Source: Phytohabitans rumicis
Lineage (GTDB): Bacteria; Actinomycetota; Actinomycetes; Mycobacteriales; Micromonosporaceae
Assembly: GCF_011764445.1 (NCBI RefSeq)
Contig: NZ_BLPG01000001.1
Location: 2,604,001-2,668,000, forward strand
Reading direction: 5' to 3'
DNA: 64,000 bases
The notes beneath the pieces are model-generated. The model made no database searches. It saw nothing but the letters and a program-made list of their open reading frames with translations, and was not told the origin of the DNA. This document shows positions 3,952 to 61,540 of the stretch, in pieces (the first letter of the stretch is position 1; every line of letters begins with the position of its first letter). A program made the position numbers and the translations under genes.

Positions 3952-4044
3952 GGACCTTCCCGTCGATCAAGGGCATACGGCCGTGGTTCGATCTCTAATC
4001 CACGACCATTCGCCCTTGATCGGCGCAGAAGTCCTTGATCGACG
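3952..4044 (+). repeat. Palindromic repeat, copy A
   Basis: Copy A of the window-wide family. The core hairpin has arms at 3961-3986 and 4000-4025 (left arm starts CGTCGATCAAGGGC, right arm ends GCCCTTGATCGGCG) around the loop TTCGATCTCTAAT. An outer right arm (GTCCTTGATCGACG) reaches 4044; the outer left arm is decayed to GGACCTTCC. It lies just downstream of eccB. The asymmetric loop reads forward (GATCTC on the plus strand). Confidence 0.9.
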
Positions 4045-4185
4045 GGGCCAGCGCCACCCAGACCGCACGGACCGAAGCGGCCCCCGCCCGCGCTCCTCCG
4101 CCCGCTCCCAGCCCGCCCGCCCCGCCCGCCCTAGTCCGCCCGCCCTAGTCCGCCCGCCCGCGCTCGCCCGCCCGCCGGCCCGCCG

Positions 4186-4288
4186 CGTCGATCAAGGACC
4201 TTCCCGTCGATCAAGGGCATATGGTCGTGGTTCGATCTCAAATCCACGGCCATATGCCCTTGATCGACGCACCTTCCCTTGATCGGCG
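4186..4288 (+). repeat. Palindromic repeat, copy B
   Basis: Copy B has both outer arms and the core. The core arms carry CATATGGTCGTGG on the left and CCACGGCCATATG on the right around TTCGATCTCAAAT. Loop orientation is forward. It follows two tandem copies of a 14-base GC-rich unit (4123-4150) and sits in the convergent gap between eccB and the mycosin gene. Confidence 0.9.
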
Positions 4289-4515
4289 AGGCACCGCGTC
4301 GACCAGTCCGTCCAGACCGGGAGGGCGCGCCCTACGCACGGGCAGAGGTCCTGCGTCGCGGATGTTGACGACTTGCTGTCGTTGGGGCAGCAGAAGAGCG
4401 TCAACATCTACGACGACGCCTTCACAAAGCTGACAAGTCGGACGGGCGCTAGCCCATGCCCTCGCGCCAGACGCTCCGCGTAGCCCTCGCCGCCACCCAC
4501 CCAGCCCTTCCACCG

Positions 4516-4600
4516 CGTCGATCAAGGACTTTTGCGTCGATCAAGGGCATACGGCCATGGTTTAGAGATCGAACCACGACCATATGCCCTTGATCGACGC
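4516..4600 (-). repeat. Palindromic repeat, copy C, supplying the mycosin stop codon
   Basis: Copy C has the left outer arm and the core hairpin, with the loop in reverse orientation (TTTAGAGATCGAA on the plus strand). On the minus strand it is read as the last codons of the mycosin gene, and the loop supplies its TAA stop at 4562-4564. No right outer arm is visible beyond 4600. Confidence 0.9.
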
Positions 4601-5878
4601 AGCGCAGGGCGACGCAGCGCAGGGAGGGGCGCGGGCGAGCGGGGGCGGTGTTAGGGGCGGGGGAAGAGTTGGATGGGGGGCCGGGCTCTTCGGGTTCGGT
4701 GCGGGGGGCGGGCATGGGGGCGACGGCGGAGCGCCAGAAGCGGCGGCGGCCGCGGGCAGGACCACGGCGACGACCAGTACGGCCAGTGTGGCCAGTACGG
4801 CGAGCCCCGCCCCGGCCAGCGCCAGCTCGCGGCTGCGGGCCCACGCGGGCGACTCCGAACCGGACTGCGGCGCCAGGGCGGGCAGTGGTGCCGGCGAGCC
4901 GTTGACGAGGCGTTCGGTGACCGCCGCGTACGGGTTGACCACGCCGCGGCCGTACGCGGAACCGCCAGCCGCCGGGGTCGCCGTACCAAGGAGTTGGCGC
5001 GTGACCTGGTCGCCGCGCAGGCTGGACTGCCGGGCGTGGATCATGGCGGCCGTGGCGGCGACGAAGCCGCAGGCGACGCCGGTGCTGTTGACCACCGTCA
5101 TGCCGCGGCCGGTCTGCAGGGTGACGACGCCGGCGCCCGGCGCCACGATGTCGACGAAGTCGCCCTGCTGGGAGTTGGCCCACCGGGCGCCGTCCTCCTG
5201 GATGGCGCCGACGCCGACCACGCCGTCGTAGCTCGCCGGGTACGGCTTGCCGCTGCCACCTTGCCGGTTGCCCTGGTCACCGACCGCCGCGACGACGACC
5301 GCGCCGCTGGCCAGCGCCCGGTCGACGGCGTCCTGCAGCGCAGCGCTGTCGGTGTACGTGACGACCGGCACCGCGATCACGTGCACGCCCCGTGCCACGG
5401 CGGCGTCGATGCCCTTGGCGATCAGCCCCGGGTCGATGACGCTGAGGCTGGAGACGGTGTCGACCACCCGGATGGGCACGATCGTGACCCGCGGCGCCAG
5501 CCCGGCGAACCCGATCGCGTTGGTCTGCTGCGCGGCGATGACGCCGGCCACCTGGGTGCCCAGGCCAAGGCAGTCGTCGTTTGCCGGGCCGCTGCCGGCC
5601 ACCGCGTCGAAGCCCTCGGTCACCTGGTTGCCCAGCTGGTCCTGGCCGGCGTCGACGCCGGTGCTCAGCACCGCGACGGTCGCGCCGCCCCCACGGGTGA
5701 ACGGCCAGACCCTCTCGGGCCCGAGCATCCGCTGCGCCCAGGGCACCGTGTCGATCACCTGGCCGGGGTCGGCGCAGTTCGGCGCCCGTTGGGCGGCGGC
5801 CGCGGGGGTCGCCCCGATGGCGCAGGTCGCCGCCGCCAGGCACAGCGCGGCCACGGTACGGACGATCGGATGGGCCAT
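4562..5878 (-). CDS. mycP: Mycosin-like subtilase (MycP family), catalytic triad lost
   Basis: This is a membrane-anchored S8 serine protease homologue of the kind that completes ESX systems. It has a signal peptide (residues 1 to about 29), a subtilase domain (about 40-325), a hydrophobic helix (about 350-375) and a Pro-rich tail. The three catalytic positions are replaced: the Asp motif reads VAVLSTGVD (Ser72), the His motif reads CLGLGTQVAG (Leu106), and the Ser motif GTS reads GVACGFVAAT (Ala269). The oxyanion AAxGN motif reads AAVGDQGN. The fold appears intact while proteolysis should be impossible, so a structural role is inferred; mycosins are known to stabilise ESX complexes independently of protease activity. 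The last dozen residues (ASIKGIWSWFDL) and the stop come from a palindromic repeat. It is last in the minus-strand ESX operon. Confidence 0.9.
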   Translation of the reverse strand: MAHPIVRTVAALCLAAATCAIGATPAAAAQRAPNCADPGQVIDTVPWAQRMLGPERVWPFTRGGGATVAVLSTGVDAGQDQLGNQVTEGFDAVAGSGPANDDCLGLGTQVAGVIAAQQTNAIGFAGLAPRVTIVPIRVVDTVSSLSVIDPGLIAKGIDAAVARGVHVIAVPVVTYTDSAALQDAVDRALASGAVVVAAVGDQGNRQGGSGKPYPASYDGVVGVGAIQEDGARWANSQQGDFVDIVAPGAGVVTLQTGRGMTVVNSTGVACGFVAATAAMIHARQSSLRGDQVTRQLLGTATPAAGGSAYGRGVVNPYAAVTERLVNGSPAPLPALAPQSGSESPAWARSRELALAGAGLAVLATLAVLVVAVVLPAAAAASGAPPSPPCPPPAPNPKSPAPHPTLPPPLTPPPLARAPPCAASPCAASIKGIWSWFDL

Positions 5879-5879
5879 G

Positions 5880-6236
5880 TCAGACGATTTTGGTCCGGTT
5901 GATCTGGTTGCGATTGTCGTCGTCGGTGCCCTGGTACTCCGACATCGCGAGGATGGTGCCGTCGCCGACCTTGGTCAGGCGCTCGCCGGCCTCGTTGAGG
6001 TTGTCCACGATGGCCTCGCGGAGCGGCCCTTCGCTGCCCTCCGGCGTCACGTTGTACGTCTCGTAGAAGGCGGTGCCGTAGCTGTCGGCGCCCCACGGCT
6101 GCTCGGCCTCGATCGTCTCGATCTCGCCGGCGATGGCCTGGGCCTTGCTGTTGAAGGACGTGGCCATCGACCGCAGGATCGCGCCCCGGCCGCCGACCTC
6201 GTTGGGATCGTCGTCGATATTAAGATACGTACCCAC
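5880..6236 (-). CDS. Small helical ESX-locus protein, WXG100-like
   Basis: A 118-residue, mostly helical protein with no signal peptide. A central turn, EQPWGADSYGTAFYETY, resembles the W-x-G turn of WXG100 helical hairpins, with helices on both sides (FNSKAQAIAGEIETIEAE and EAIVDNLNEAGERLTKVG). I infer a secreted substrate or chaperone partner of this ESX system. It starts inside the end of the YbaB-like gene (17-bp overlap) and ends one base before the mycosin start, so it is translationally linked to both. Confidence 0.75.
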   Translation of the reverse strand: MGTYLNIDDDPNEVGGRGAILRSMATSFNSKAQAIAGEIETIEAEQPWGADSYGTAFYETYNVTPEGSEGPLREAIVDNLNEAGERLTKVGDGTILAMSEYQGTDDDNRNQINRTKIV

Positions 6237-6642
6237 GGCCGTCCTCCTCGTTCTTCTTCAACGCGTGCGGCAGATCGGCGTCGTGACTTTCCATCAGTAC
6301 GTCGAAATCCGTCTTTCCGATCAGGCCGGGTCCCGGGTCTTTGGGCATGATCTTGTCGACGATCTCGCGGGTCTTCTTGTTGGCGTCTTCGACCGCGGCG
6401 CGGACCGTGGACAGGATCGTCGCGGACAGCGCCTTCGAGTTGGGGGTGCGGTACACGCGCGGGTCGATCTCCAGCTCGATGAGCTGGCCCCGCGGGCCCA
6501 CGACCGCCTTGATCAACTTGTCGTCGGACCAGGCGGTGCCGGTGACCTCCATGACCTGCTGCCGGGTCTGCGCCGCGCTTTCCAGGGAGTGCTGAAGCTG
6601 GTCGATCACCCCACGGATCGCTGACCACTGCGGACGCTCCAC
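6220..6642 (-). CDS. YbaB/EbfC-family protein of the ESX locus
   Basis: A 140-residue protein with the YbaB arrangement: an N-terminal helix (IDQLQHSLESAAQTRQQV), a three-stranded segment (VVGPRGQLIELEIDPRVY) and a C-terminal helix. YbaB proteins bind DNA as dimers. In mycobacterial ESX loci the related EspL is a cytosolic protein needed for substrate stability or secretion, so a similar supporting role is likely here. It overlaps the next gene by 17 bp. Family call from fold pattern and context. Confidence 0.78.
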   Translation of the reverse strand: MERPQWSAIRGVIDQLQHSLESAAQTRQQVMEVTGTAWSDDKLIKAVVGPRGQLIELEIDPRVYRTPNSKALSATILSTVRAAVEDANKKTREIVDKIMPKDPGPGLIGKTDFDVLMESHDADLPHALKKNEEDGRGYVS

Positions 6643-6674
6643 GCCTCACCTCCCCGTCGGCTCATTCGACAGTA

Positions 6675-7529
6675 TCAACCCTGGCCGCGCAGCAGATCCC
6701 CGATGTCGCCCGGGGGCAGCGGCACCGGCGGGTCGATGTCGTCGTCGGGAAACGGGACCACCACCGGAACGACGGTCGACGTGGGGCCGTCGAACCGGCG
6801 GGCCAGTTCTACGGCGTGCGCGAGCAGCTCCGGGATCTGCTCACCGTGCAGCATGACGGCGATGGGCGAGCCGAAGTTGACCGCGAGGCGGTACTCCGTA
6901 CCGGGCCACTGCTGGAGCATCGCGACGAAGTCCATGGTCCTGGTCGGCACGCCGGCGTCGCCCAGGCACTCCTCGTACCGCTCCGGGGAGGTGAAGACCG
7001 GCACGGTCGGCGCGCCGTCCAGGTCCAGCGCCCGGGTCGGCACGATCACCCGCGCCGTCACCAGGACGTCGAGGAAGACGTCCGGGTCCGGCGCGACCAG
7101 TGCGTCGCGCAGCAGGCGCTCCACCTCGTTGGCCGGTACGAAGCCGGCCACGGTCGCCTGCGTGGGCACCAGCGTGGGCAGGTCGTCCGGGTTGACCAGC
7201 ACCCCGATCGGCGTGACCGGGTTGATCGCCAGCCCCCACCCGGCGGGCGTGCGCTGCACGACCTCCTGCAGGCTGGTCTGCCGCCACCCGTCCGACTCGA
7301 CCGCCCGCTGCATCGCCTCCGGCGAGGTGAAGACCAGCAGGTACGGCACGCCGTCCCGCTCCCGGGTGAGCAACCGCTGCTGCGGATCGGACGAGGCAGC
7401 GGACGCAAAGCCGGGCACCACCAAGGGACTGACCGCGAGGATCCGCATCACCTGGGCCTGGTCGCCGGCGCGTACCGCGTCGTGCAGCCGGCGCTCCACG
7501 TCGTTGGCGGGGGTCCACGGGGTGGTCAT
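6675..7529 (-). CDS. Protein with two SseB-like domains
   Basis: A 284-residue soluble protein with two tandem repeats of the SseB-type domain (about residues 6-115 and 125-240). Each begins with a similar helix (NDVERRLHDAVRAG and NEVERLLRDALVAP) and contains a strand reading VFTSPE. SseB domains occur in many actinobacterial ESX loci; their role there is unknown. The ATG at 7529 overlaps the stop of the upstream SUKH gene (ATGA), marking the true start although the frame is open further upstream. The C-terminus is an acidic Pro-rich tail. Confidence 0.8.
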   Translation of the reverse strand: MTTPWTPANDVERRLHDAVRAGDQAQVMRILAVSPLVVPGFASAASSDPQQRLLTRERDGVPYLLVFTSPEAMQRAVESDGWRQTSLQEVVQRTPAGWGLAINPVTPIGVLVNPDDLPTLVPTQATVAGFVPANEVERLLRDALVAPDPDVFLDVLVTARVIVPTRALDLDGAPTVPVFTSPERYEECLGDAGVPTRTMDFVAMLQQWPGTEYRLAVNFGSPIAVMLHGEQIPELLAHAVELARRFDGPTSTVVPVVVPFPDDDIDPPVPLPPGDIGDLLRGQG

Positions 7530-8590
7530 CGCGCCTCGAAGAGGGAGGTCAGCGGGTCCTGGCCGGACACCGGCGCCGGCTGCCACGGGGCCCGGGCACG
7601 TGCGGGGAGCCCGGCGCCGACCGCCTCGTCGCGTACCTGGGTGACCTGGCCGCGCTCGGCCCACTCCCCGGCCAGCCGCAACAGCGCCTCCGCCGGGCGG
7701 GCCAGCGCGGTCCACAGGTCGTCGATGCTGTCCGCGCACCGGTACAGCAGGTGGGCGCAGATGTGCTCGGCGTCGTACGCGTCGCGGTCGCGGGGATCGT
7801 CGTCGTCCCAGTACCAGATCGAGTCGAGGTCGCCGCCGGACACCTTGACCGCGAGCAGGCCGCCCTGGACGTACCCGATCGGCAGGAAGTCGACGGTGAG
7901 CCGGTCGCGCACCCATTCCACCACATAGGACAGATCCTGGTGCCGGTCGTCCCGGGCGATCCCGAAGAACGGCTGGTCGGCGACCAAGCCGTACCCGGAA
8001 AGGACGCCGGGCGCCGCGGGCCCGGCACCGTTGGTCTCGGCCAAAAACCGCCGGTATGCCGGCGGCAACGGCCAGCCGAGCGCGCTCTCCAGCAGGTCGA
8101 GCAGATCATCGGGTACGGGCTCGCCCGGCGCCCGCCGCGCGGATGCCGGCTCGGGGTCGACGCGCAGCCCTCGCCCGGCCGAGGGCAGCAGCCGCACCCC
8201 GCCCGCGTGCCGGAACGCCGCGTGCAGCTCGGCCGGCACCAGCGCTAACCGCCGGGGCGGGTCGGGCGCGCCCACGTGCGCCCAGCACCAGCCGACCGGC
8301 GTCGTGGCTGCCGTCCACAGTGGATCGCCGGCCGGCTCGGCGGCGGCGCGGGCCATCGCCTCGTTGGCCGCCAGCACGTCCACCACGCGCTGCTCGTCCC
8401 GGGTCAGCCCGGCGTCGGGCGGCGGCAGCTCGACGACCGCCCGCGCGCACAGCGGCCAGTCCGGAAAGCCGTACGGGGTGACCAGCACGCCTTGCCGGTA
8501 CCGGACCTGCAGCGTCGGCGACCCGGGGTGGATCACGCTCATCGCGAAGCGCGCTCCCGGGGCCAGGTCCGGCGGGTCGGCGGCGGTCAT
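7526..8590 (-). CDS. SMI1/KNR4 (SUKH) domain protein
   Basis: A 354-residue protein. Residues from about 160 to 285 match the SUKH fold: ALGWPLPPAYRRFLAETNG, then YGLV, then a Trp/Asp-rich stretch (IWYWDDDDPRDRDA). SUKH proteins commonly neutralise secreted polymorphic toxins. The N-terminal half is a separate, unrecognised domain. Its place inside an ESX operon raises the possibility of an immunity function for an exported toxin, but no toxin domain is visible nearby. ATGA overlaps link it to the genes on both sides. Confidence 0.78.
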   Translation of the reverse strand: MTAADPPDLAPGARFAMSVIHPGSPTLQVRYRQGVLVTPYGFPDWPLCARAVVELPPPDAGLTRDEQRVVDVLAANEAMARAAAEPAGDPLWTAATTPVGWCWAHVGAPDPPRRLALVPAELHAAFRHAGGVRLLPSAGRGLRVDPEPASARRAPGEPVPDDLLDLLESALGWPLPPAYRRFLAETNGAGPAAPGVLSGYGLVADQPFFGIARDDRHQDLSYVVEWVRDRLTVDFLPIGYVQGGLLAVKVSGGDLDSIWYWDDDDPRDRDAYDAEHICAHLLYRCADSIDDLWTALARPAEALLRLAGEWAERGQVTQVRDEAVGAGLPARARAPWQPAPVSGQDPLTSLFEAR

Positions 8591-9165
8591 GGTGCCAGTT
8601 TGGCGTATGTGCCGGCGGCGATCCGGACCAGCCGCGGCACGATGTCGGCTGGCATGCCGTCGGCGACGTTCACGGCCGCCTCGACCTCCAGCACCAGGTT
8701 GCCGTGGTAGCTGGTCAGCTTCACGTCGTCCTTGTCGCTGCTCCAGAACGCGTCAGTGCCGGCGCCGTCGACGTCGGTGTACGGCCGCTTCGCGAGCCGC
8801 CGGCCGGTCTCCACGAAGAGCTTCGCGGCCGCCTCGGTCTGCAGCAGGTCGGCGTCGATGGTGAGGCTGACGCTGCGCTCGGTCGACGTACGCCGGGTCA
8901 CGCACAGCTTTTCGGTGTTGACGAGCCGCGCGGCGTCCTCCTTGGGGTAGAGGTCGACGAGCGGGCTCTGGTCGGCCTTTTCGCACAGCTCGCCGGAGAG
9001 CGTGTAGACGACGCCGGCCGCGGCCGGCGCGGACGTGGCGGGGCTGTCCGACGCGAGCGGCGGCAACGGGATCTCACCGTCACCAGGCGTGTTGGCGTCG
9101 CCGCCGCCGGAGCAGCCGGCCACGAACGCCAGGAGCAGTGCGGCGGCGAGTGTGGCCGGCCTCAT
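8587..9165 (-). CDS. Putative lipoprotein of the ESX operon
   Basis: A 192-residue lipoprotein. The start at 9165 gives a short signal peptide with lipobox VAGC, then a Ser/Pro/Ala linker and a C-terminal domain with two cysteines (ELCEK, KLCVT). The general look is of the DUF3558-like actinobacterial lipoproteins, but I do not assign a family. The start overlaps the stop of the upstream gene (ATGA at 9162-9165), and its own stop overlaps the SUKH start, so it is in the same operon. Confidence 0.78.
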   Translation of the reverse strand: MRPATLAAALLLAFVAGCSGGGDANTPGDGEIPLPPLASDSPATSAPAAAGVVYTLSGELCEKADQSPLVDLYPKEDAARLVNTEKLCVTRRTSTERSVSLTIDADLLQTEAAAKLFVETGRRLAKRPYTDVDGAGTDAFWSSDKDDVKLTSYHGNLVLEVEAAVNVADGMPADIVPRLVRIAAGTYAKLAP

Positions 9166-11201
9166 GCGCCGAGGGTCGGCTTGGGCTCCGCCGACGGCGC
9201 GGCGGAACGAGCCGGTCCGCTGTCCAGGACACCACCGCCCGGCGTGTCCACGGTCCACGCGCCCTCCCGGTCGAGGATCCGGCGGATGTTGTCGAACTCA
9301 TCGTCGACCGAGACCTGCGGCTCCTGGGCGGACCGCTTGCGCGAGCCGATCTCGCCCTCGTACCCGGCGATGCCGTCGTTGCGCTTGCCGCGCATGACGC
9401 CGGCGGTCGGCTCCGGCGGCGGCGGCGCGCCGGGGTCGAGCCGGGCGGAGCGTCCGACCACCGGGCTCGCCGTCGGCCGCGGCGGCGGAGCCAGCGGGTT
9501 CAGCGGCGCATTGGGTACGGGCGGCGCCGTGCCCGGACGCGCCGGCGGCTCGGCCTGCGGGCTGCGCTGCTGCGGCCGGCTCAGCACCGGCGGTGTGGTG
9601 GCGCCGGGGTGCAACGGTGGGCCGCTGCCGCCCGGGTTCTGGCCGCCGCTCACGCCGGGCGTGCCGCGGCGCGGGTTGCCACCACCTCGGGACGGCGCTG
9701 GCGGGTTCGCGTGCGGGTTGCGCAGCACCGGCGAGGCGGGCGTGCCGGGCGGACCGCCGAACTGGTCGCTGACGCCGGGCGTGCCGGGCGTACCCGGCTT
9801 TGCCTGCTCGGGCCCGTCCGTGCCGCGCTTGCCCTGCGGCGGGTGCGGCGTGCCGGAGCCCGGCCCCCGGCCCTTGATCGTCGGCGGTGGCGGCGCCTGC
9901 GTGCCGCGCTGTGGCATGCCCGGCGGCAGACCACCTTCCGGCGACGGCGGCGTCATCCCGGCGCGCAGCACGCCGGGCCCGGCACCGCCCAGGTTCTTCA
10001 GCAGGCCGCTGGTGGCGGGCGCGGTCGGCAGCCCACCCGGGCCCAGGGCGGGCAGCTTGCCCGGGCCACCGGGCGGCAGTCCCGGCGGAACGACCGGCGG
10101 CACCACGGGCAGCTGGCCAACCGGAGGCGTCACGGTCGGCGTGGTGATGCTCGGCGGGGTCGCGGTCGGCGTGTCGATGTCCGGCTTCGTGATGTCGTCG
10201 GTGGTCGGCGCCTTGATGTCCGGGTCGACGTTGCCGAGCTTGTCCTTCAACCCGCTGACGTCGGGCTTCTTGTCGTTCAGCGCGGTGATGTTGGGGTTGA
10301 TGTTGGTGGGCGTCTGGATCTTCGGCGGCGGGCCGAAGTTCGGCATGCCGTACCTGGCGATGAACTCCGGGTTGGGCAGGACCGCGTCGCCCGGCCCCTC
10401 GTAGACCGTGGCCCGGCCGCCGGCGTAGTCCTCGCTCATCGTGCGCCAGTAGTCCTGCGCCATGTCGTACTGGATCTTCTGGGCCTTGTAGTGCCAGCCG
10501 AGCTGGGCGTTGCGCATCCAGGTGATGTAGTTGTCCGCCTGGTAGCTGCCCTTCGGGATCGCGTTGATGGAGGAGTACTTCTTGCCGTCGATGTCGGCGT
10601 TCTGCGGGTTGTCCAGCCACATGCTGCTCATCGAGACCATCGAGTCCTTGTACTGCTGGTACAGCCGCTCCATCTCGCCCCGGCGCTGGCTCATGGCGCT
10701 GGCCAGCGCGAGCGTGCCCATCCAGTTGTTGAAGGCGGCCTGCTCCCAGTCGTCGATCGACTTGAGCGTGGCGCCCGGGCCGCGAGCCAGGAACGCGTCG
10801 GCGCCGGCGCCGGTCCAGCCACCCTTGCCGCCTTCGCCGTCGCCGCCCTCCTTGAGGTTCTTGGCGGCGTTCAGGACCCGGCTGCGCAGATCCTGGAGAA
10901 CGTCGTGCAGCTGCCACCACTGGTCGGCGAGCCGGTGCAGCACGACCGGGTCCTGACTCATGATCCGCTTGTAGATATCCTCGATGCCGTTCGCGTAGTA
11001 GGCGCGCGTCTCGTCGCCCGGCTTCAGGCTGTCCCCGAACTGCTTCTCGAAGTTGGGCGTCGGATCGATGTACTGGTCGTCGCCCTGCGGCGGCGGGTAG
11101 TGCGAGATGTCCTCGCCCATCCGGCGCGCCATCCGCCGGTTCTCCATCAGGTCTTCGTTTTGCGATGGGGTGTACCCGAAGTAGTCGCCTTCGCCCGCCA
11201 T
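9162..11201 (-). CDS. Large ESX substrate-like protein, helical N-terminus and Pro/Gly-rich tail
   Basis: A 679-residue protein without a signal peptide. Residues 1 to about 290 are helical and contain a WXG-type turn, GGWTGAGADAFLARGPG, between long helices (IYKRIMSQDPVVLHRLADQW). Residues about 300-600 are low-complexity Pro/Gly/Thr sequence, and the end is a charged segment (VDDEFDNIRRILDREGAWTV). This is the layout of EspB/PPE-type ESX substrates, so I infer that it is exported by the adjacent machinery. The C-terminal DNIRRILDREGAW stretch is a candidate interaction module. It is preceded by the 326-residue gene with a 9-bp gap. Confidence 0.8.
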   Translation of the reverse strand: MAGEGDYFGYTPSQNEDLMENRRMARRMGEDISHYPPPQGDDQYIDPTPNFEKQFGDSLKPGDETRAYYANGIEDIYKRIMSQDPVVLHRLADQWWQLHDVLQDLRSRVLNAAKNLKEGGDGEGGKGGWTGAGADAFLARGPGATLKSIDDWEQAAFNNWMGTLALASAMSQRRGEMERLYQQYKDSMVSMSSMWLDNPQNADIDGKKYSSINAIPKGSYQADNYITWMRNAQLGWHYKAQKIQYDMAQDYWRTMSEDYAGGRATVYEGPGDAVLPNPEFIARYGMPNFGPPPKIQTPTNINPNITALNDKKPDVSGLKDKLGNVDPDIKAPTTDDITKPDIDTPTATPPSITTPTVTPPVGQLPVVPPVVPPGLPPGGPGKLPALGPGGLPTAPATSGLLKNLGGAGPGVLRAGMTPPSPEGGLPPGMPQRGTQAPPPPTIKGRGPGSGTPHPPQGKRGTDGPEQAKPGTPGTPGVSDQFGGPPGTPASPVLRNPHANPPAPSRGGGNPRRGTPGVSGGQNPGGSGPPLHPGATTPPVLSRPQQRSPQAEPPARPGTAPPVPNAPLNPLAPPPRPTASPVVGRSARLDPGAPPPPEPTAGVMRGKRNDGIAGYEGEIGSRKRSAQEPQVSVDDEFDNIRRILDREGAWTVDTPGGGVLDSGPARSAAPSAEPKPTLGA

Positions 11202-11210
11202 GACCGACCC

Positions 11211-12191
11211 CTACGCCATGCCGTAGTCGTTGACGGTGTGCTGCTGGCCATCGGAGTCGAGCGTCTCGGCCGCGTCCTCGACGGGCGTCTCGACCTCGCC
11301 GTCCTCGTGGCTGTCGCGCCGGACCGTCGTCTCGGTGACGTCCGGCTTCGCGTCTCCGGTCTTGGTCTCGTTGACGACCGTGACGCTGCCGTCGCTGTTC
11401 TCCGTCGTGGTGTTGGTGGTCGACCGCTGGTCGGCGCCCGAGCCGGTCGTGCTGGTCGTGCTGGTGGTCTGCCGGCCGTCGCTGGTCGTGCCGCGCTTGT
11501 CGGTCTGGGTGGAGAGAATCGTCTTGCCGTCCGCCGCGTAGATCGTGGTGGTGGTCACGTAGACGACGTCGCCGTTCGCGTTGATCTCGGTGCTCGAGTG
11601 GACGTGCTTCTGGGAGCCGTCCGCGAACGTGTAGTAGGCACCGTACGGGTACGGGGCGGTGCTGGTGGCCATGGAGTTGTCGGCCGTCAGGGACATCGCG
11701 TTCGTGCCGGCCTCCGCGGCCAGCCGCTGCTGCATCTCCTGGAACGTCTCGGTCTTGCGGAAGCCGCGCGGCCCGTTCGCGTCGGTGTCACCGAAGACGA
11801 AGCCGATGTCGTTGACGTTCGCGCCGTTCGCGTTGTCGGTGTTGGCGTACATCTCCGCCACGACGGCGGCTGCCCCACCGATGTTGACGACACCGATGGT
11901 CACGTCACCGACGAAGTGCCGGAAGTCACTGATCCGGCCGCGCAGGAACCGGGCGGCCTGCTGGCCCTCCGGGAGGATCTGGCCCTCCAATGGCGTATTC
12001 AGCGCGTCCTGCACGAGCATGCTCATCTCGGACATCGCCTTGCTCGCCGCCCCGGCGGCGTCACCGGACAGCTTCGACATCTCCTGGTAGTACGTGACCA
12101 GGTCCGTGACCTTGACCTTGACGTCCTCCGGGTCCGCGAAGGACTCGTAGGTGTAGGTCGAGCTGCCGCTATCCTCGTCCGGAATCGCCAT
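11211..12191 (-). CDS. ESX-associated protein with Thr-rich beta-repeat tail
   Basis: A 326-residue protein I do not recognise. The N-terminal half is helical, resembling a WXG-type secreted domain (KVTDLVTYYQEMSKLSGDAA) and including a hydrophobic stretch (VTIGVVNIGGAAAVVAEM). From about residue 190 the sequence turns into Thr/Ser/Asp-rich short strands with turns (TEINANGDVVYVTTTTIY, YAADGKTILSTQTDKRG), like extracellular beta repeats. There is no signal peptide, so if exported it would use the ESX system. It lies between the EsxA-like gene and the 679-residue gene. Confidence 0.75.
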   Translation of the reverse strand: MAIPDEDSGSSTYTYESFADPEDVKVKVTDLVTYYQEMSKLSGDAAGAASKAMSEMSMLVQDALNTPLEGQILPEGQQAARFLRGRISDFRHFVGDVTIGVVNIGGAAAVVAEMYANTDNANGANVNDIGFVFGDTDANGPRGFRKTETFQEMQQRLAAEAGTNAMSLTADNSMATSTAPYPYGAYYTFADGSQKHVHSSTEINANGDVVYVTTTTIYAADGKTILSTQTDKRGTTSDGRQTTSTTSTTGSGADQRSTTNTTTENSDGSVTVVNETKTGDAKPDVTETTVRRDSHEDGEVETPVEDAAETLDSDGQQHTVNDYGMA

Positions 12192-12297
12192 CGTGCCTCC
12201 CCCGATCCTGATCGAACGGTATTACGCGCTGCCCAGTGCCACAGACGACGGGTCCCGGCGAAGGCGCCACCGCGCTTCGCCGGGACACCCGTGTCCG

Positions 12298-12591
12298 TCA
12301 GAAGCCGGCCGAGATCTTCTGGTCGACGCTCTGCATGCGCTCGGAGGATGCCCCGAGAGCCTGGCCCAGGCGCATCAGCGCCGACTTGATCTCGTTGGCC
12401 CCGTCGTTCCACTGGCGCTGGGCGTCCTCGCACGCCTGGCCGGCGGCGCCCTGCCAGTCCTGGGCGAAGAGGGTCTTGAAGTCGTTGTACAGATCGCCCA
12501 GCTCGACGTCCAGGTTGCCGGAGTACGTGCCGATCGCGGTCGCCACGTCGCCGATGGCGGCGAAGTTGTAGCTGATTGGGATGTCAGTCAT
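12298..12591 (-). CDS. WXG100 (ESAT-6/EsxA-like) secreted protein
   Basis: A 97-residue WXG100 protein, the canonical size. Two helices flank the signature DWQGAAG at about residues 44-50; the C-terminal helix continues through ALGASSERMQSVDQK. These proteins are secreted as helical-hairpin heterodimers by EccC-type systems. It pairs with the gene directly upstream (12634-13065). Neither partner carries an obvious YxxxD/E tail. Confidence 0.88.
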   Translation of the reverse strand: MTDIPISYNFAAIGDVATAIGTYSGNLDVELGDLYNDFKTLFAQDWQGAAGQACEDAQRQWNDGANEIKSALMRLGQALGASSERMQSVDQKISAGF

Positions 12592-12633
12592 TGCAGTGTC
12601 GCCTCTCGAGTGTCTCGACTACGGATAAGAACG

Positions 12634-13065
12634 TCAGCCACGCAGGGCGCTGATGACGGCACCGTCGCCGGTCTCCGCCGCTGCCTGCCGGATGGTCTGT
12701 GCCGCGTCCTCGTCGTTGACGCCGTATTCCGTCGAGGCATTGCTGATCTTGCCGGACAGCTCGTCTAGCGCGTTCAGGACCTTCGTAAGGCCGTTGTTCA
12801 GGTCGCTGGACACGTTCTGCAGCGCCGCGTTGGCCGAACCGCTCATGCCGGTGCCGCTCAGATCGGTGACCTGGTCGAGCAACTGCGCCATGCCGGTAGC
12901 CAGGCGCTCACGGACGGTCTGGCAGCGCTCGGCCATCTTGTTGAGCTGGTCCTGTGTGGCGTGCACATTGCCGACGCCTGGAGTACCCGTCAAGGCGGAC
13001 TCACCCCGCTCCTCTGTAATGCCCCCGCCCAGGGGAGCCTCCCCTTGGGACGCATGACTGTCCAT
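12634..13065 (-). CDS. EsxB/CFP-10-like protein with Met in place of the WXG tryptophan
   Basis: A protein of about 143 residues whose last 100 positions form a WXG100-type hairpin (VHATQDQLNKMAERCQTVRE, then a turn, then VSSDLNNGLTKVLNALDEL). The turn reads GMSGSANAA, so Met occupies the usual Trp position. The C-terminus (QTIRQAAAET) may be the export tail. An N-terminal extension of about 40 Gly/Glu-rich residues precedes the hairpin. The start is uncertain: 13065 is chosen, but 13098 and starts nearer the hairpin are possible, as none has a strong ribosome-binding site. It heads the minus-strand ESX operon. Confidence 0.78.
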   Translation of the reverse strand: MDSHASQGEAPLGGGITEERGESALTGTPGVGNVHATQDQLNKMAERCQTVRERLATGMAQLLDQVTDLSGTGMSGSANAALQNVSSDLNNGLTKVLNALDELSGKISNASTEYGVNDEDAAQTIRQAAAETGDGAVISALRG

Positions 13066-13160
13066 GCGCCATACATCGCGACCCGAAGGTAACGCCATTT
13101 GTCCACTCAGACCAGCCCGGGGTGGGGCTGTGCCGGTTTTGCCGGCTATGACCTCGTGGC

Positions 13161-13208
13161 CAGGGCGTTCCTCACGGCGATTGCTCGTACTACGTGAGGA
13201 ACGCCCTG
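13161..13208. terminator. Perfect 16-bp inverted repeat, likely terminator
   Basis: CAGGGCGTTCCTCACG at 13161-13176 is exactly complementary to CGTGAGGAACGCCCTG at 13193-13208 around a 16-base loop. It lies 14 bp beyond the stop of the minus-strand CBM48 gene and upstream of the ESX operon, so it probably ends transcription of the former. No T-run follows, as is common in high-GC actinobacteria. Confidence 0.6.
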
Positions 13209-13221
13209 CCGGTTCACGGGT

Positions 13222-13497
13222 TCACAGGATGATTTCGCCGCCCTCGTGGTCGACGCGGTCGGCGTGCTCGTCGTCCAGCCACACACCACCGGTCGCCAGG
13301 TAGCGAAACCGGTACCGGCCGGGTTCGAGCTTGACCGTCACCGTACGGGTGCCGTCCTTGCGCGGCACCAGTTCGTGCCGGCCCGGCTCCCACTGGTTGA
13401 AACAGCCCACCACGCTCACCGAGCCTGCGGGCGCGTCCTTGGGCAGGCAGAACGTCACTCGGGTCTTCGTACCGAACAGCTTGTTTCTCTTGATCAC
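13222..13497 (-). CDS. Isoamylase N-terminal/CBM48-like small protein
   Basis: A 91-residue protein consisting of one glycogen-binding (AMPK-beta/CBM48-type) domain: VTFCLPKDAPAGSVSVVGCF, NQWEPGRHEL, and ending YRFRYLATGGVWLDDEHADR. Stand-alone copies are common in actinobacteria; carbohydrate binding is inferred, with no catalytic part. The GTG start at 13497 is fixed by a strong GGAGGAG four bases upstream. The gene stands alone, followed by a strong hairpin. Confidence 0.8.
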   Translation of the reverse strand: MIKRNKLFGTKTRVTFCLPKDAPAGSVSVVGCFNQWEPGRHELVPRKDGTRTVTVKLEPGRYRFRYLATGGVWLDDEHADRVDHEGGEIIL

Positions 13498-13750
13498 GTT
13501 GCTCCTCCGGCGTTTTTCAGGTTCGCCGGTATCGAGCTTTGCCCGGCCACGACCCGCCAGCCGGAAGCGACACACCGTGACTTTTAGAAGTAACGTGAGA
13601 AGGAATCGCGCGCCGGCCAATGCGCCCCAGCGATGTGCTGTTGAGAATCGCCGTCGGCTTGTCGAAGAGCCGCACCCAACCTGATCTTGGTGTTCCGGTT
13701 GCCGACTCGGGCGCGATGGGCAAAGCTCCCGTTTGGAGGTGTTTGTCACC

Positions 13751-14011
13751 ATGGCGATCTGCGAAGTCTGCGGCAACGACTACTGGCTGGCGTTCGAGAT
13801 ACGGACGATCAGCGGCGACACGCACGTGTTCGACTCGTTCGAATGCGCGATCCACCGGCTGGCCCCGGTGTGCGAGCACTGCCAATGCAAGATCGTCGGG
13901 CACGGCGTGGAGGTGTCCGGCCGGTTCTACTGCTGCGCGCACTGCGCCCGCTCGGCCGACACCGAGCACGGCTTCAAAATCCAGGACGCCGTCGGCGTCC
14001 ACCCGGGCTAG
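13751..14011 (+). CDS. Small cysteine-rich zinc-ribbon protein
   Basis: An 86-residue protein with four Cys/His clusters: CEVC near the start, FECAIH, CEHCQC, and CCAHC near the end. The pattern suggests two bound metal ions and resembles small actinobacterial proteins labelled prokaryotic metallothionein or zinc ribbon. Function is not known; metal buffering or a DNA/protein-binding zinc finger are both possible. The start at 13751 is supported by GGAGGTG about ten bases upstream. Confidence 0.75.
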   Translation: MAICEVCGNDYWLAFEIRTISGDTHVFDSFECAIHRLAPVCEHCQCKIVGHGVEVSGRFYCCAHCARSADTEHGFKIQDAVGVHPG

Positions 14012-14047
14012 CCCCTCGCCTGTCCCCCGCCGCGCCTGGTCGCGCGT

Positions 14048-14149
14048 GCCGATCAAGGCTTTCCGCGTCGATCAAGGGCATACGGCCGCGGTTTGATCTC
14101 CGATCCACGACCGTTTGCCCTTGATCGACGCGGAATCCCTTGATCGACG
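14048..14149 (+). repeat. Palindromic repeat, copy D
   Basis: A complete copy with outer arms (CGATCAAGGCTTTCCGCG and CGCGGAATCCCTTGATCG) and core hairpin; forward loop TTTGATCTCCGAT. The outer-to-inner spacers match each other (TTCCGCG with CGCGGAA), differing from other copies on both arms. It lies between two plus-strand genes, followed by a simple repeat of CGCGCCCTC units (about 14178-14220). Confidence 0.9.
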
Positions 14150-14331
14150 AACCGCGCAGGCAGCCCCGCGTCACGTCCGCGCGCCCTCCGCGCCCTCCGC
14201 GCCGCGCGCCCTCCGCGCCGTGTGCCCGATGATCGCGTTGATCAGGGGCGCGCTCCTGGGACACGCGGCCACACGCCCGAGCCACTCCCTGATCAACTCT
14301 CGGTCGGGGCGCGGCGGCCTACGATCGGGGC

Positions 14332-14919
14332 GTGGAGGTTCACGTCGCGGAGTTTGCCGAGTTGGACGGGCGCACGCTGTATGAGCTGCTGCGCCTGCGG
14401 GTGGACGTGTTCGTCGTCGAGCAGAAGTGCGCCTACCCCGAACTGGACGGGCGGGACACCGAGCCGGGGACCCGGCACGTCTGGCTCTCGTCGGGCGGGA
14501 CGCCAACGGCGTACCTCCGGATCCTGGACGACCCCGGCGGTGTCGCACGGATCGGCCGGGTCCTGGTGGTCGCGGCCGAGCGTGGCACCGGCGCCGCCGG
14601 TCGCCTGATGGCGGCCGCCCTCGACGTGGTCGGCGACCGCCCCTGCGTGCTGGACGCCCAGTCCCACCTGGTGGGCTTCTACGAGCGCTACGGCTTCCGG
14701 CCCACCGGCCCGGAGTTCATCGAGGACGGCATTCCCCACGTGCCGATGGCTAGGGCGTTTCTGGTGGATCTTTGTGGGGCTGCGGCGGATCCAGACGACG
14801 ACCGGCGGCACCGGGCGGAAGGCCACATACAACACCGGTATGCGACCTTCCGCCCGGCACCACCGGACCGCCGCCTGGACCTCGTCTCGCACCCACAAGA
14901 TCCACCAGAAACGCCCTAG
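14332..14919 (+). CDS. GNAT acetyltransferase (ElaA-like), C-terminus extended by a MITE
   Basis: A GNAT-family N-acetyltransferase similar to Ela[21 protein letters not shown], then [17 protein letters not shown], the acetyl-CoA loop [10 protein letters not shown], and the closing [20 protein letters not shown]. ElaA proteins normally end shortly after GIPHVPM (near residue 140). Here the frame runs 50-odd residues further through a MITE-like inverted repeat (14750-14919) whose end supplies the TAG stop. The extension is composed of repeat sequence and is unlikely to be functional. The substrate is unknown. Confidence 0.85.
14750..14919. mobile_element. MITE-like element, about 170 bp, inverted repeats ending in CTAG
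   Basis: Both ends begin with the same 23 bases (CTAGGGCGTTTCTGGTGG continuing ATCTT), pointing inward, and the imperfect complementarity continues to the centre near 14838. There is no coding capacity for a transposase. CTAG at 14750-14753 and at 14916-14919 may be target duplication or part of the termini; IS5-type elements often target CTAG or TA. It joins the 3' ends of the convergent GNAT and hemQ genes, and its right CTAG gives a TAG stop to each of them on opposite strands. Confidence 0.75.
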
Positions 14920-15614
14920 GGCAGCGACGCGACCAGCTCGGCCACCGAGCGGCGGCGACCGGTGAAGAACGGGACCTCCTCGCGGACGTGCCGCCGGGCC
15001 CGGGAGGCCCGCAGGTCACGCATCAGGTCGACGATCCGGTGCAGCTCGTCCGCCTCGAACGCGAGCATCCACTCGAAGTCGCCCAGCGCGAACGATGCCA
15101 CCGTGTTGGCCCGCACGTCCGGGTAGCCGCGCGCCATCCGGCCGTGCTCGGCGAGCATCTCGCGGCGCTCCTCGTCCGGCAGCAGGTACCACTCGTACGA
15201 GCGTACGAACGGGTAGACGCACACGTACGCGCGCGCCTCCTCGCCGGCCAGGAACGCGGGCAGGTGGCTCTTGTTGAACTCCGCCGGCCGGTGCAGCGCC
15301 ATCTGCGACCACACCGGGGCCAGGTGGCGGCCGAGGGCGGTGCGACGCAACAGCCCGTACGCCTCCTGGAGCGCGTCGGCGGACGAGGCGTGCCACCACA
15401 CCATCAGGTCGGCGTCGGCGCGCAGGCCGGACACGTCGTAGCTGCCGCGCACCACCACGTCCTTGGCGGCGAGCTGCTCGAAGAGCGAGTCCACCTCGCC
15501 GGCCAACGGCTCGCGCAGCGCCGGCAGCGGCGCGGCGGCGCGGAACACCGACCACATCGTGTACCGGATCGTGGCGTTCAGCTCCTTGATCCGGCCCGCG
15601 TTCGTCTCGCTCAT
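14916..15614 (-). CDS. hemQ: Coproheme decarboxylase HemQ (ChdC)
   Basis: HemQ converts coproheme to haem b, the last step of the coproporphyrin-dependent pathway of Gram-positive bacteria. The 232-residue protein shows the chlorite-dismutase-like fold markers: [10 protein letters not shown] near the start, [28 protein letters not shown], then [20 protein letters not shown] with the catalytic Tyr region, and [18 protein letters not shown]. It overlaps the start of nothing but shares ATGA-type overlap with hemY upstream (15611-15614). Its TAG stop lies in the CTAG end of the MITE-like element. Confidence 0.95.
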
Positions 15615-16954: not shown

Positions 16955-17039
16955 GGCTCCACACTGTCAGGTCTCGACTGCGCATCGACATCCGGGCCTG
17001 GCGTTGTGTGACGTTCGCGGCACATGCCAAGGTCGCTCG

Positions 17040-20457: not shown

Positions 20458-20560
20458 CGTCGATCAAGGACCTTCGCGTCGATCAAGGGCAAACGGTCGT
20501 GGATCGGAGATCAAAGCACGACCATTCGCCCTTGATCGACGCACAAAGCCTTAATCGACG
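20458..20560 (-). repeat. Palindromic repeat, copy E
   Basis: A complete copy with both outer arms; the right outer arm carries a change (GCCTTAATCGACG). Reverse loop orientation (ATCGGAGATCAAA on the plus strand). It lies between DUF3000 and the minus-strand proline-rich membrane protein gene, in a convergent gap. Confidence 0.9.
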
Positions 20561-20721: not shown

Positions 20722-20901
20722 CATCGATCAAGGAATTCCCCGTCGATCAAGGGCAAACGGCCGCGGATCGGAGATCAAACCACGACCATTCGCCCTTGAT
20801 CGACGCACCAGCCCTTGATCGACGAGCCAGCCCTTGATCGACGCACCAGCCCTTGATCGACGCGGCCTGCCCCTGATCGACGCACAAAGCGTTGATCGAC
20901 G
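20722..20901 (-). repeat. Palindromic repeat, copy F, with expanded right arm
   Basis: The core hairpin lies at 20741-20805 with a reverse loop. To its right the outer-arm half is multiplied: five tandem units of 19-20 bp (20805-20900), each ending CTTGATCGAC or a close variant (GCACCAGCCCTTGATCGAC, then GAGCCAGCCCTTGATCGAC, and so on). The left outer arm is single. This is the only copy in the window with tandem growth of one arm. Confidence 0.9.
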
Positions 20902-37950: not shown

Positions 37951-38033
37951 CGTCGATCAAGGGCATACGGCCGTGGTTTGATCTCTAATCCGCGACCGTT
38001 TGCCCTTGATCGACGCAAAAGTCCTTGATCGAG
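37951..38033 (+). repeat. Palindromic repeat, copy G
   Basis: Core hairpin plus right outer arm (GTCCTTGATCGAGG); the left outer arm is missing, replaced by a GCGCGCC-type simple repeat (about 37785-37945). Forward loop TTTGATCTCTAAT. It is the only copy in a divergent gap (37775-38141), between the PQQ paralogue 3 start and a plus-strand membrane protein. The rest of that gap shows no gene. Confidence 0.9.
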
Positions 38034-38141
38034 GTCGGGCTGGGCGGGTTGGATGTTGGCACATCCTGATCGTGTCCCGTAACCAAGGCCGATCCGTGGA
38101 TGGGTAACGTCCGTGGCTGGCAGACGGCGAGGGGAGACGCG

Positions 38142-39516: not shown

Positions 39517-39600
39517 CGTCGATCAAGGACTTTCGCGTCGATCAAGGGCAAACGGTCGTGGATCGGAGATCAAAGCACGACCATACGCCCTTGATCGACG
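39517..39600 (-). repeat. Palindromic repeat, copy H
   Basis: Left outer arm (CGTCGATCAAGGACTTTCG) and core hairpin; reverse loop ATCGGAGATCAAA. The right outer arm is absent. It lies 50 bp from the end of dxs in the convergent gap between the membrane protein gene and dxs. Confidence 0.9.
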
Positions 39601-43780: not shown

Positions 43781-43864
43781 CGCCGATCAAGGGAAAGTGC
43801 GTCGATCAAGGGCAAACGGTCGTGGATCAGAGATCAAAGCACGACCGTTCGCCCTTGATCGACG
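43781..43864 (-). repeat. Palindromic repeat, copy I
   Basis: Decayed left outer arm (GCCGATCAAGGGAAAGTG) and a good core; reverse loop ATCAGAGATCAAA. It lies between the C-biased tract and the 3' end of the rlmCD-type gene, in a convergent gap. Confidence 0.88.
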
Positions 43865-48588: not shown

Positions 48589-48600
48589 CCCGGCCTCTAT

Positions 48601-48740: not shown

Positions 48741-49350
48741 GCCGCACGGCCCAGACCGTAAAGGCCAGCAGCAGGAGGTACGGCGGGTAGCCCAGCACCA
48801 GCCGGGCGATGCCGAGCGCGGTGTCCTGGTCGGCGACGTAGAGGCCGGCCTGGACGCCCACCTTGGCCAGCCACACCACGCCCCAGAGCACGGTCAGCCG
48901 GCTGAAGAGGCGGATGAGCCGGGCATCGGTGCGCCATTCGGCCTTGCCACCCGCCACGATCACCGACCAGATCCAGCCCACCAGCGGCTGCCGGATCGCC
49001 ACGGACGCGAGCAGCGCCAGGCCGTACCCGATGCCGTACAGGATGCCGGGCAGGTAGAAGTCCTTTTCGTCGCCGGTGCGCCAGGCGATGAACGCGCCGA
49101 TGCCCACCCCGAAGAGGCCGTTCACCGCGTGGCGGATCGGGCGGCGCTGGATCAGGCGCAGCGCGGCGATCGCCAGCGCGATCCCGACCGAGGCGATCAG
49201 CGCGGGGTTGAGGTCGGCGACGATGTTGACGACCACGAACACCATGACCGGCACGCTGGACTCGACAAGTCCCCGCCAGCCGCCCAACTGGTCGGCCATC
49301 TGCTCGGCGAAGCTGGGCAAGCGTTCTTCGTCGTCGTCCGGCTGCGTCAT
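48652..49350 (-). CDS. DUF3159 membrane protein
   Basis: A 232-residue protein with about six membrane helices (SVPVMVFVVVNIVADLNPAL, LALLASVAIRQPLVGWIWSV) and a soluble acidic start (TQPDDDEERLPSFAEQM). It matches DUF3159, found beside an OB-fold protein in this conserved block. Function is unknown; a channel or transporter-like role is possible. Its last 25 residues (RRHKGRAARDPQPCDREA) are encoded by the 55-bp tandem repeat. Confidence 0.85.
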   Translation of the reverse strand: MTQPDDDEERLPSFAEQMADQLGGWRGLVESSVPVMVFVVVNIVADLNPALIASVGIALAIAALRLIQRRPIRHAVNGLFGVGIGAFIAWRTGDEKDFYLPGILYGIGYGLALLASVAIRQPLVGWIWSVIVAGGKAEWRTDARLIRLFSRLTVLWGVVWLAKVGVQAGLYVADQDTALGIARLVLGYPPYLLLLAFTVWAVRRVTRTRRPRRHKGRAARDPQPCDREAAPA

Positions 49351-49858: not shown

Positions 49859-49958
49859 CCGATCAAGGACTTTCCCGTCGATCAAGGGCATATGGCCGTG
49901 GTTCGATCTCCGATCCACGACCGTTTGCCCTTGATCGACGGGAAAGTCCTTGATCGGC
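49859..49958 (+). repeat. Palindromic repeat, copy J (complete, near-perfect stem)
   Basis: One of the two best-preserved copies: outer arms CGATCAAGGACTTTCCCG and CGGGAAAGTCCTTGATCG pair perfectly and enclose the core with forward loop TTCGATCTCCGAT, giving arms of about 43 bp. A partial extra outer arm lies at 49820-49839. It sits between the OB-fold gene start and the end of DUF3710, both on the minus strand. Confidence 0.92.
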
Positions 49959-50027
49959 ACGGGCAGCGCGGGGCCGCCGCGCATGGCGCGGACGGACGAG
50001 CGTGGTGCCGGCGGGTGGCGAAAGGGG

Positions 50028-53900: not shown

Positions 53901-54003
53901 CGCCGATCAAGGACTTGCCCGTCGATCAAGGGCATACGGCCGTGCTTTGATCTCAAAACCACGACCATTTGCCCTTGATCGACGGGCAAGTCCTTGATCG
54001 GCG
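53901..54003 (+). repeat. Palindromic repeat, copy K (complete, with covarying spacer)
   Basis: A complete copy. The spacer between outer and inner arms differs from copy J, yet both arms changed together (ACTTGCCCG with CGGGCAAGT), and the outermost bases are CGCC/GGCG on both sides. Forward loop TTTGATCTCAAAA. It lies in the convergent gap between the LytR_C and inositol monophosphatase genes. Confidence 0.92.
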
Positions 54004-54007
54004 GGCC

Positions 54008-54097
54008 GACGCACGACGGCGCGACGCACGACGGCGCGACGCACGACGGCGCGACGCACGACGGCGCGACGCACGACGGCGCGACGCACGACGGCGC
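54008..54097. repeat. 15-bp tandem repeat, six perfect copies
   Basis: GACGCACGACGGCGC is repeated six times without change, starting five bases after palindromic copy K. It has no spacers, so it is not a CRISPR. It lies in the convergent gap before the inositol monophosphatase gene. Confidence 0.95.
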
Positions 54098-54139
54098 GCG
54101 ACAGGGCCGTCGTGCGACGGCGGGCGGGGCGGGAGGGGG

Positions 54140-57354: not shown

Positions 57355-57365
57355 TCGTCTTCACT

Positions 57366-60361: not shown

Positions 60362-61233
60362 TCCTCGTCGTTGGCGACCTGGCCACCGACGTGGTCGCGG
60401 CCGTCGAATCCGCGCTCGCCACCGGCTCGGACACCCGGGCGCGGATCCGCTTCACGGGCGGCGGCCAGGCCGCCAACACCGCCGCGTGGCTCGCCGAGCT
60501 GGGCGCGCCGGTCACCCTCGTCGCGGCGGTCGGCGCCGACGACGCCGGCCGGGCCCGGGTGGCCGAACTGACCGCCCTCGGCGTCCGGTGCGCGATACAC
60601 GAGCACGCCGGCGCGGCGACCGGCAGCGTGATCGTGCTGACCCACGACGGCGAGCGCACCATGGTCACCGACCGCGGCGCGAACCTCCTGCTCTCCGCCG
60701 ACCACGTCGACACCGCCCTGACCGCTTCCCTCGACGCTCGGCATGTGCACGTCTCCGCGTACACCTTGCTGGATGGCGGGTCCCGCGAGGCCGGGCTGCG
60801 CGCGCTGGCCGCGGCGCGCGAACGCGGGCTGACGACGAGCGTCGACGCGGCGTCCGCGGCCCCGTTGCGGCGCGCCGGCGCCGCCTTCCTGGATTGGGTA
60901 CGGGGTGCCGACCTGCTCCTGGCCAACGCGGACGAGGCGGCGGTGCTGGCCGGCGTGGGAGACGCGGCCACGCAGGCGCGCGCGCTGGCCGAGGTGGCCG
61001 CGAACGCCGTCGTGAAGCGCGGCGCGGACGGCGCGGTGTGGGCCGCGGCCGGGCAGGTCGTGTCGGCACCCGGCCGCCCGGCGGCGGTGGTGGACCCGAC
61101 GGGCGCCGGCGACGCCTTCGCGGCGGCCCTGCTGGCAAGCTGGCTGGCCGGCGCGCCCCCGGCGGAATCCCTGGCCGCCGCCGTAGCCACCGGCGCCCGC
61201 GCCGTAACCACCCTAGGCGCCCGCCCGACCTAG
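60358..61233 (+). CDS. psuK: PfkB-family kinase, probable pseudouridine kinase
   Basis: A 291-residue ribokinase-like kinase: [11 protein letters not shown] at the start, [18 protein letters not shown], and the catalytic motif [15 protein letters not shown] with the base Asp. It would phosphorylate pseudouridine for PsuG; the family alone is not specific, and the assignment rests on the overlap with psuG. It is followed by a convergent gap with two palindromic copies. Confidence 0.87.
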
Positions 61234-61237
61234 TCCA

Positions 61238-61275
61238 CCCCGCGGCGCCCTCCCCGCGGCGCCCTCCCCGCGGCG
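61238..61275. repeat. 14-bp tandem repeat beside copy L
   Basis: CCCCGCGGCGCCCT occurs two and a half times (from 61238, 61252 and 61266), running directly into the left outer arm of palindromic copy L. Confidence 0.8.
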
Positions 61276-61373
61276 ATCAAGGACCTGGCCGTCGATCAAG
61301 GGCGTATGGCCGTGGTTCGATCTCCAATCCGCGACCGTATGCCCTTGATCGACGCACTTTCCCTTGATCGGCG
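61273..61373 (+). repeat. Palindromic repeat, copy L
   Basis: A complete copy with forward loop TTCGATCTCCAAT. The outer spacers do not match well (GGACCTGGC on the left, CACTTTCCC on the right). It lies 40 bp from the psuK stop. Confidence 0.9.
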
Positions 61374-61456
61374 AAGCGCCGCGCCGACCGGGCCGCACGG
61401 CCCCGGAGCGGCCCCCACGCCCGCTCCCCGGCCCGCGCCAGCCCGCCCGCCCGCCC

Positions 61457-61540
61457 CGTCGATCAAGGACTTTCCCGTCGATCAAGGGCATATGGCCGTG
61501 GTTTAGAGATCGAACCACGACCATATGCCCTTGATCGACG
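61457..61540 (-). repeat. Palindromic repeat, copy M
   Basis: Left outer arm and a nearly perfect core (GGGCATATGGCCGTGG with CCACGACCATATGCCC); reverse loop TTTAGAGATCGAA. It lies on the DUF3099 side of the convergent gap, opposite in orientation to copy L on the psuK side. Confidence 0.92.

Follow-up and report, generated by a model that had tools for sequence, protein, structure and literature searches.

The 64,000-nt stretch of Phytohabitans rumicis (Micromonosporaceae) analyzed here, positions 2,604,001 to 2,668,000 of contig NZ_BLPG01000001.1 and hereafter called the window, carries thirteen copies, A to M, of a long palindromic element in the gaps between its genes. These copies had been picked out in a first-pass annotation, and repeat finding recovered a single family, 114 nt long, at all thirteen positions. 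In the window copies, the core is 65 nt long and consists, in order, of CGTCGATCAAGGGC, a first inner arm, a loop of 13 nt with the form TTYGATCTCNRAW, a second inner arm and GCCCTTGATCGACG; the core of copy A terminates in GGCG instead. What had been described as 'outer arms' are extra CGTCGATCAAGG boxes, placed at a step of 19 nt.

The loop assigns a strand to each copy: plus for A, B, D, G, J, K and L (7), minus for C, E, F, H, I and M (6). The element is asymmetric on the loop strand, on which a leader, C-rich and about 100 nt long, is followed by a 26-bp hairpin and, 19 nt on, by a second right arm, CCTTGATCG. Once the window copies were oriented, this arm was found at the 19-nt step in 13 of 13; the left outer arm is optional. 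Among 152 copies collected over 2.06 Mb around the window, the right arm was present in 150 and the left arm in 68. Of the four CGTC positions, 1, 2 and 4 form Watson-Crick pairs in 146 to 148 of these 152 copies; position 3 does so in 111, and another 28 have G-U there. The six strands folded as RNA, two for each of copies B, H and J, gave energies of -52 to -89 kcal/mol, with z values from -6.9 to -16.7.

Three copies lie close to the left end of the window: A (3961..4044, plus) has the core and right arm, B (4205..4288, plus) has the left outer arm too, from 4186, and C (4516..4599, minus) holds in its loop the end of a called minus-strand gene (4562-5878), as the claim that this copy enters a gene end implied. 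Copy D (14066..14149, plus) has a left box from 14047. Copies E (20458..20541) and F (20722..20805) are both on the minus strand, and adjoining F is an array without strand (20813..20901) of five more 12-nt boxes at steps of 19 to 20 nt. Copy G (37951..38034, plus) lies in a divergent gap; H (39517..39600) and I (43781..43864) are both minus. Copy J (49876..49959, plus), with a left arm from 49857, is a near-perfect palindrome of 103 nt. Copy K (53920..54003, plus) has a left arm from 53901, and a tandem repeat with a 15-nt unit (53999-54103) directly adjoins it. Copies L (61290..61373, plus) and M (61457..61540, minus) are the left and right partners of a head-to-head pair. Elsewhere in the window, a 55-nt unit forms a tandem repeat of three copies (48588-48752).

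Placement and orientation relative to genes

Genes were called in the 2.06 Mb with a simple purpose-written hexamer caller, not taken from annotation. Under one set of gene calls, ten window copies lie in six convergent gaps, two in tandem gaps and one in a divergent gap, the same distribution as reported at first; copy I, however, counts as convergent only if a weak open reading frame (43055-43231) is real, and with a larger training set its gap became tandem. It had also been stated that every convergent gap longer than about 200 bp has a copy. This was so in the window under one set of calls, but cruder calls gave three convergent gaps there without a copy (691, 552 and 315 bp), and over the 2.06 Mb the proportion was 45 of 82 convergent gaps of at least 200 bp.

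Over this larger region, 72 of the 152 copies were convergent, 55 tandem, 12 divergent and 12 genic, and 1 was at the edge. Given total gap lengths of 51.1 kb (convergent), 179.3 kb (tandem) and 91.3 kb (divergent), the densities were 1.41, 0.31 and 0.13 copies per kb, respectively. Of convergent gaps of at least 100 bp, 54 of 107 had a copy; for tandem and divergent gaps of this size, the proportions were 46 of 405 and 11 of 230. Gap size alone does not explain this bias, because the difference is kept among gaps of 100 to 300 bp (22/48 convergent, 17/248 tandem, 1/134 divergent). Furthermore, 45 of the 72 convergent copies begin 25 to 100 nt past the stop codon of the gene whose direction they share. 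As at copy C, a called gene enters a copy with its 3' end in 20 cases, 18 of them in sense, yielding tags such as SIKGIWSWFDL. The bias for gene 3' ends is thus present outside the window, and density and placement over 2.06 Mb agree with the first description of the family as tied to gene 3' ends and similar to repetitive extragenic palindromes (REPs).

Orientation follows the genes in convergent gaps: 58 of the 72 copies point with the nearest gene (P = 1.6e-7, for copies that are not fully independent), and 31 of the 38 single ones point with the nearer gene. Micromonospora sp. CPCC 205371 was examined in the same way, on stretches chosen for holding a copy and after 60 of 138 copies at stretch edges had been dropped; 26 of its 30 convergent copies point with the nearest gene, and its tandem copies are 27 in sense and 11 in antisense. 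When its stretches were mixed with those of metagenome-assembled genomes (MAGs), the convergent proportion was 28 of 33.

Inverted pairs of copies within one gap always face each other. P. rumicis has 18 head-to-head pairs (11 convergent, 6 tandem, 1 divergent) and CPCC 205371 has 20, with 0 the opposite way in either; same-direction pairs number 9 and 4, respectively. Counting copies that overlap gene ends as well gave 24 head-to-head pairs, 6 and 3 same-direction pairs, and again 0 the opposite way. One MAG stretch (L171) is included in the G-U, skew and first pair counts of this relative, and the pairs are unchanged without it. The spacers between partners have no single common sequence. 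A composite transposon with common cargo was considered and rejected: the interiors of 63 pairs, some of which enclose a gene, share only pieces of 55 to 172 bp in both orientations, among the matches listed, and these pieces were taken for other repeats.

The leader is visible in base composition. Upstream of the loop strand, the skew of C over G in P. rumicis is about +0.33 across some 100 nt, with T exceeding A in the stretch nearest the hairpin, and downstream it is -0.22, fading over 100 to 150 nt. Antisense and divergent copies have a similar skew and gaps without copies have a skew of about 0, so that the leader belongs with the element. The values for CPCC 205371, one MAG stretch included, are +0.27 upstream and about 0 downstream. 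At loci of four other genera, C was in excess to the left of the palindrome in 27 of 29 rows, which were taken as found, not loop-oriented, and include some places twice. For unclustered palindromes, the inward C skew was just 0.02.

Spread among genomes and conservation of pairing

When up to 3 mismatches were allowed, the core pattern matched 287 sites on each strand of the 10.71-Mb P. rumicis genome. Since no copy in the 2.06 Mb matched both strands within 3 mismatches, the total is 574 copies. The reversed core pattern, used as a control, had 0 matches in the whole genome. With 13 copies in 64 kb, compared to a genome average of about 1 per 19 kb, the window is rich in copies. Two other regions of the same genome, at about 0.84 to 1.76 and 6.92 to 8.04 Mb of contig C1, had no main-family copy among the positions listed and 0 in 400 kb sampled; both are about equidistant from dnaA (4.435 Mb), and their called coding density is 0.72 to 0.75, compared to 0.85.

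A looser pattern, GATCNAGG...CCTNGATC, had 622 matches in P. rumicis. Among 250 genomes of Micromonosporaceae, the next seven had 443, 131, 103, 101, 98, 81 and 80, and most had fewer than 20; 171 genomes from other families of the order had 0 to 14 each. The matches listed in a named scan came from Micromonosporaceae only, on at least 120 stretches, of which 120 comprise 112 from CPCC 205371 and 8 from two MAGs. In carriers the element sequence is species-specific, and related versions with the same loop and compensated stem changes occur in two other genera. Phage and plasmid records gave no blastn match to a copy J query, and a pattern search of viral contigs gave no match. Several contig ends of the CPCC 205371 draft (L061, L090, L099, L111 and others) fall in or beside a copy, and the repeat appears to break the assemblies of this genome.

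Six loci, chosen because the relative has a copy there, were compared with P. rumicis: the copy was absent from the latter at four and present in both genomes at two. In one example, a convergent gap measures 222 bp with the copy (L112) and 22 bp without it. By eye, in a comparison that looked for the traces of a MITE of a classical transposon, none of the six showed a clean insertion boundary or a clean target duplication. At one locus shared by four species of the same genus as P. rumicis (L033-L036), a seemingly diverged palindrome with a 19-nt second arm was seen, also by eye.

Pairing was assessed on 31 cores, drawn from P. rumicis, CPCC 205371 and G001, G032 or its MAG, G076 and a second MAG, which cover three placed genera. 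The inner stems diverge between species yet stay mostly paired; both sides have changed in 13 of 26 pairs, and the covariation score was 0.278, compared to 0.120 for shuffled and at most 0.070 for slid alignments. Invariant among the 31 cores were GATC and AGG in the left arm and GATC in the loop. On the loop strand, pairs of the G-U type are more frequent than A-C pairs (155:111 and 306:117), which may weakly favour an RNA read from that strand; the support is weak because such pairs are shared by descent.

Other palindromes occur in the same region. A different, near-perfect one, GATCAAGGCGTCCTTCAAGTCG... (window 27979-28028), lies a few bases past a stop codon and belongs to a family with 24 members in the 2.06 Mb, 0 of them in divergent gaps. 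A third family, GATCTAGGAGTTATCGTGGGTATAAATCGGAC... (window 43348-43405), has six members there, and a similar palindrome is found in another genus (L041). In C1:2404001-4468000, 12 further clusters of at least 3 palindromes, some of low complexity, amount to about ten more long-palindrome families, for example AGGAAGGGCCCCTTCCT with 27 members. Of the three largest families other than the main one, two have no member in divergent gaps and one has 1.

Candidate roles and alternatives

The closest described relatives in form are the REPs. As far as the available portions of the source describe them, the GTAG- and CGTC-tagged superfamilies are palindromes of 20 to 40 bp with an unpaired tag, the CGTC group having stems of 8 to 9 bp and loops of 4 to 5; they lie mainly in convergent and unidirectional gaps, often near gene ends, and their dimers are predominantly head-to-head (PMC3733652). 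The P. rumicis family resembles them in its many intergenic palindromes, its convergent and tandem placement, its head-to-head dimers and its proximity to gene ends. It differs in its 65-nt core, its 26-bp stem (longer with the outer arms), its paired CGTC, its 13-nt loop, its second arm and its C-rich leader. The element thus behaves like REPs in placement and pairing, yet is not a GTAG or CGTC REP as that text defines them, because of its length, paired CGTC, loop and second arm and the lack of a Y1 transposase. The bacterial interspersed mosaic elements (BIMEs) and REP doublets forming hairpins (REPINs), in the part of the account to hand, are paired inverted palindromes around variable spacers linked to REP-associated tyrosine transposases (PMC2817692); inverted pairs and variable spacers are common to both, whereas P. 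rumicis has no Y1 transposase.

Of 8 genomes searched for Y1 (PF01797), 7, including P. rumicis (G000), G001 and G032, gave none, and it was present in G078. A parent element with a transposase between copies was rejected as well, as nine intervals between copies hold ordinary-looking genes by eye, one gene per interval being viewed and no search against families made. The earlier statement that no transposase is linked therefore stands for Y1, other kinds of transposase not having been searched for. Nor does the family appear to be catalogued already: Rfam gave nothing above the gathering threshold in the window, the 23 Rfam matches of copy J were all below it (20 being microRNA hairpin models), and no published description of the palindrome was found among the matches listed.

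We give an even chance to the reading in which this is a lineage-specific, REP-like dispersed palindrome family acting as a directional element of transcript 3' ends. Judging from placement and orientation, copies are likely to assist in the ending or protection of messenger RNAs, perhaps as terminators or RNA-end protectors, maybe with the assistance of Rho. In Rho-dependent terminators, the stop site is preceded by a stretch rich in C and poor in G, and the leader described above has this composition; such RNA ahead of the hairpin would resemble a Rho-assisted 3' end, although composition alone is no proof. A polymerase leaving a gene would extrude the C-rich leader first and the hairpin next; the leader may be where Rho or another factor loads, and the hairpin might pause the polymerase and afterwards mark and protect the RNA 3' end. 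Each of two convergent genes would be served by an element of its own, which would be the reason why pairs face each other. The head-to-head pairs fit such an arrangement, with one element per gene end, each halting transcription that enters the gap. Pairing does not by itself prove a role at gene ends, since head-to-head dimers also predominate in REPs according to the portion of PMC3733652 cited. A parallel may be found in the HS-U-lack 3' ends of Streptomyces clavuligerus, which the accessible text describes as strong stem-loops with no U and likens to I-shaped or Rho-dependent ends (PMC8269248). A strong hairpin, the lack of a U-tract and a GC-rich actinobacterial host are shared; HS-U-lack, as described there, is a class of 3' ends, whereas the present element is a family of repeats in which loop and boxes are conserved.

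Several observations weigh against a 3'-end role. No U-tract follows the hairpin: downstream positions of the 152 copies are G-rich, with no T run, and a terminator scan of window positions 1-20000 flagged 0 of the 4 copies there. The sequence is conserved far beyond what a terminator needs. Tandem copies of P. rumicis are 29 in sense and 26 in antisense. The C skew is not unique to the family, the 24-member GATCAAGGCGTCCTTCAAGTCG family having an inward skew of 0.29 in the nearest 25 nt, a value based on few bases. Further pair types among the 31 cores (27) were not above those in shuffles (27.3). Within the genome, the arms vary independently (pair 21/45: TA 62, CA 40, TG 40, CG 10); pairing is therefore not kept copy by copy, and the constraint acts either across longer periods or on a master of the family. 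Finally, other species of the same genus (G002-G005) have just 9 to 24 matches to the general pattern, and the family is thus dispensable.

The main rival, which we hold to be possible though rather doubtful, is a miniature mobile repeat of a selfish, REP-like kind, which either inserts preferentially at gene 3' ends or is tolerated there; the insertion process would then account for direction, and the hairpin would have no role for the host. The patchy occurrence among species, the species-specific sequence of carriers, the four of six loci without a copy in P. rumicis (loci chosen for the relative's copy), the called genes whose ends enter a copy, and the chromosome regions without copies among the positions listed all speak for it. 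It accords less well with the lack of Y1 in P. rumicis, with the six loci at which no clean target duplication was seen by eye, with a loop and arms that have been preserved in two further genera, and with pairing retained through compensated changes.

The bidirectional terminator suggested in the first-pass annotation, a symmetric structure common to both genes of a convergent pair, appears unlikely. Its stem is nearly palindromic, both strands fold well in the three copies tried, 38 convergent gaps hold a single copy, and tandem copies of P. rumicis have no overall strand preference; but the loop, the second arm and the leader confer direction, single convergent copies mostly lie nearer the gene they point with, and inverted pairs never face apart. 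Binding sites for a nucleoid protein were also suggested there. A double-stranded site for a nucleoid or chromosome protein, in which 12-bp GATC boxes recur every 19 bp, is more improbable still: the regular step, the box arrays and the stronger conservation of boxes than of the inner stem are in its favour, but boxes are seldom alone (189 half sites for 50 copies in 464 kb, each copy holding three or four), orientation tracks genes in convergent gaps, and the sole GATC-binding protein that could be checked, Gbn, whose actinobacterial sites are likewise GATC-based and given as GATCWT in the part of the source seen (PMC9239103), does not fit, GATCWT being absent from all 13 window copies and present in 1 of 152.

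More speculatively, and with a good deal of doubt, the directional 3'-end element can be extended to a system of boundaries throughout the genome, belonging to one bacterial family. A lineage-specific trans-acting factor would read the conserved loop and two boxes in nascent RNA (or in DNA) and end transcription leaving the gene, the C-rich leaders would have evolved around the sites, and a domesticated repeat would thus have furnished directional insulators. To our knowledge, transcript ending without a U-tract has been little mapped in very GC-rich actinobacteria. With its roughly 574 directional sites of similar build, this genome offers a ready test set for how RNAs end, and the sites might provide one-way parts for engineering antibiotic producers. 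If the copies are mobile, they would form a large family of REP-like elements that lacks the usual transposase.

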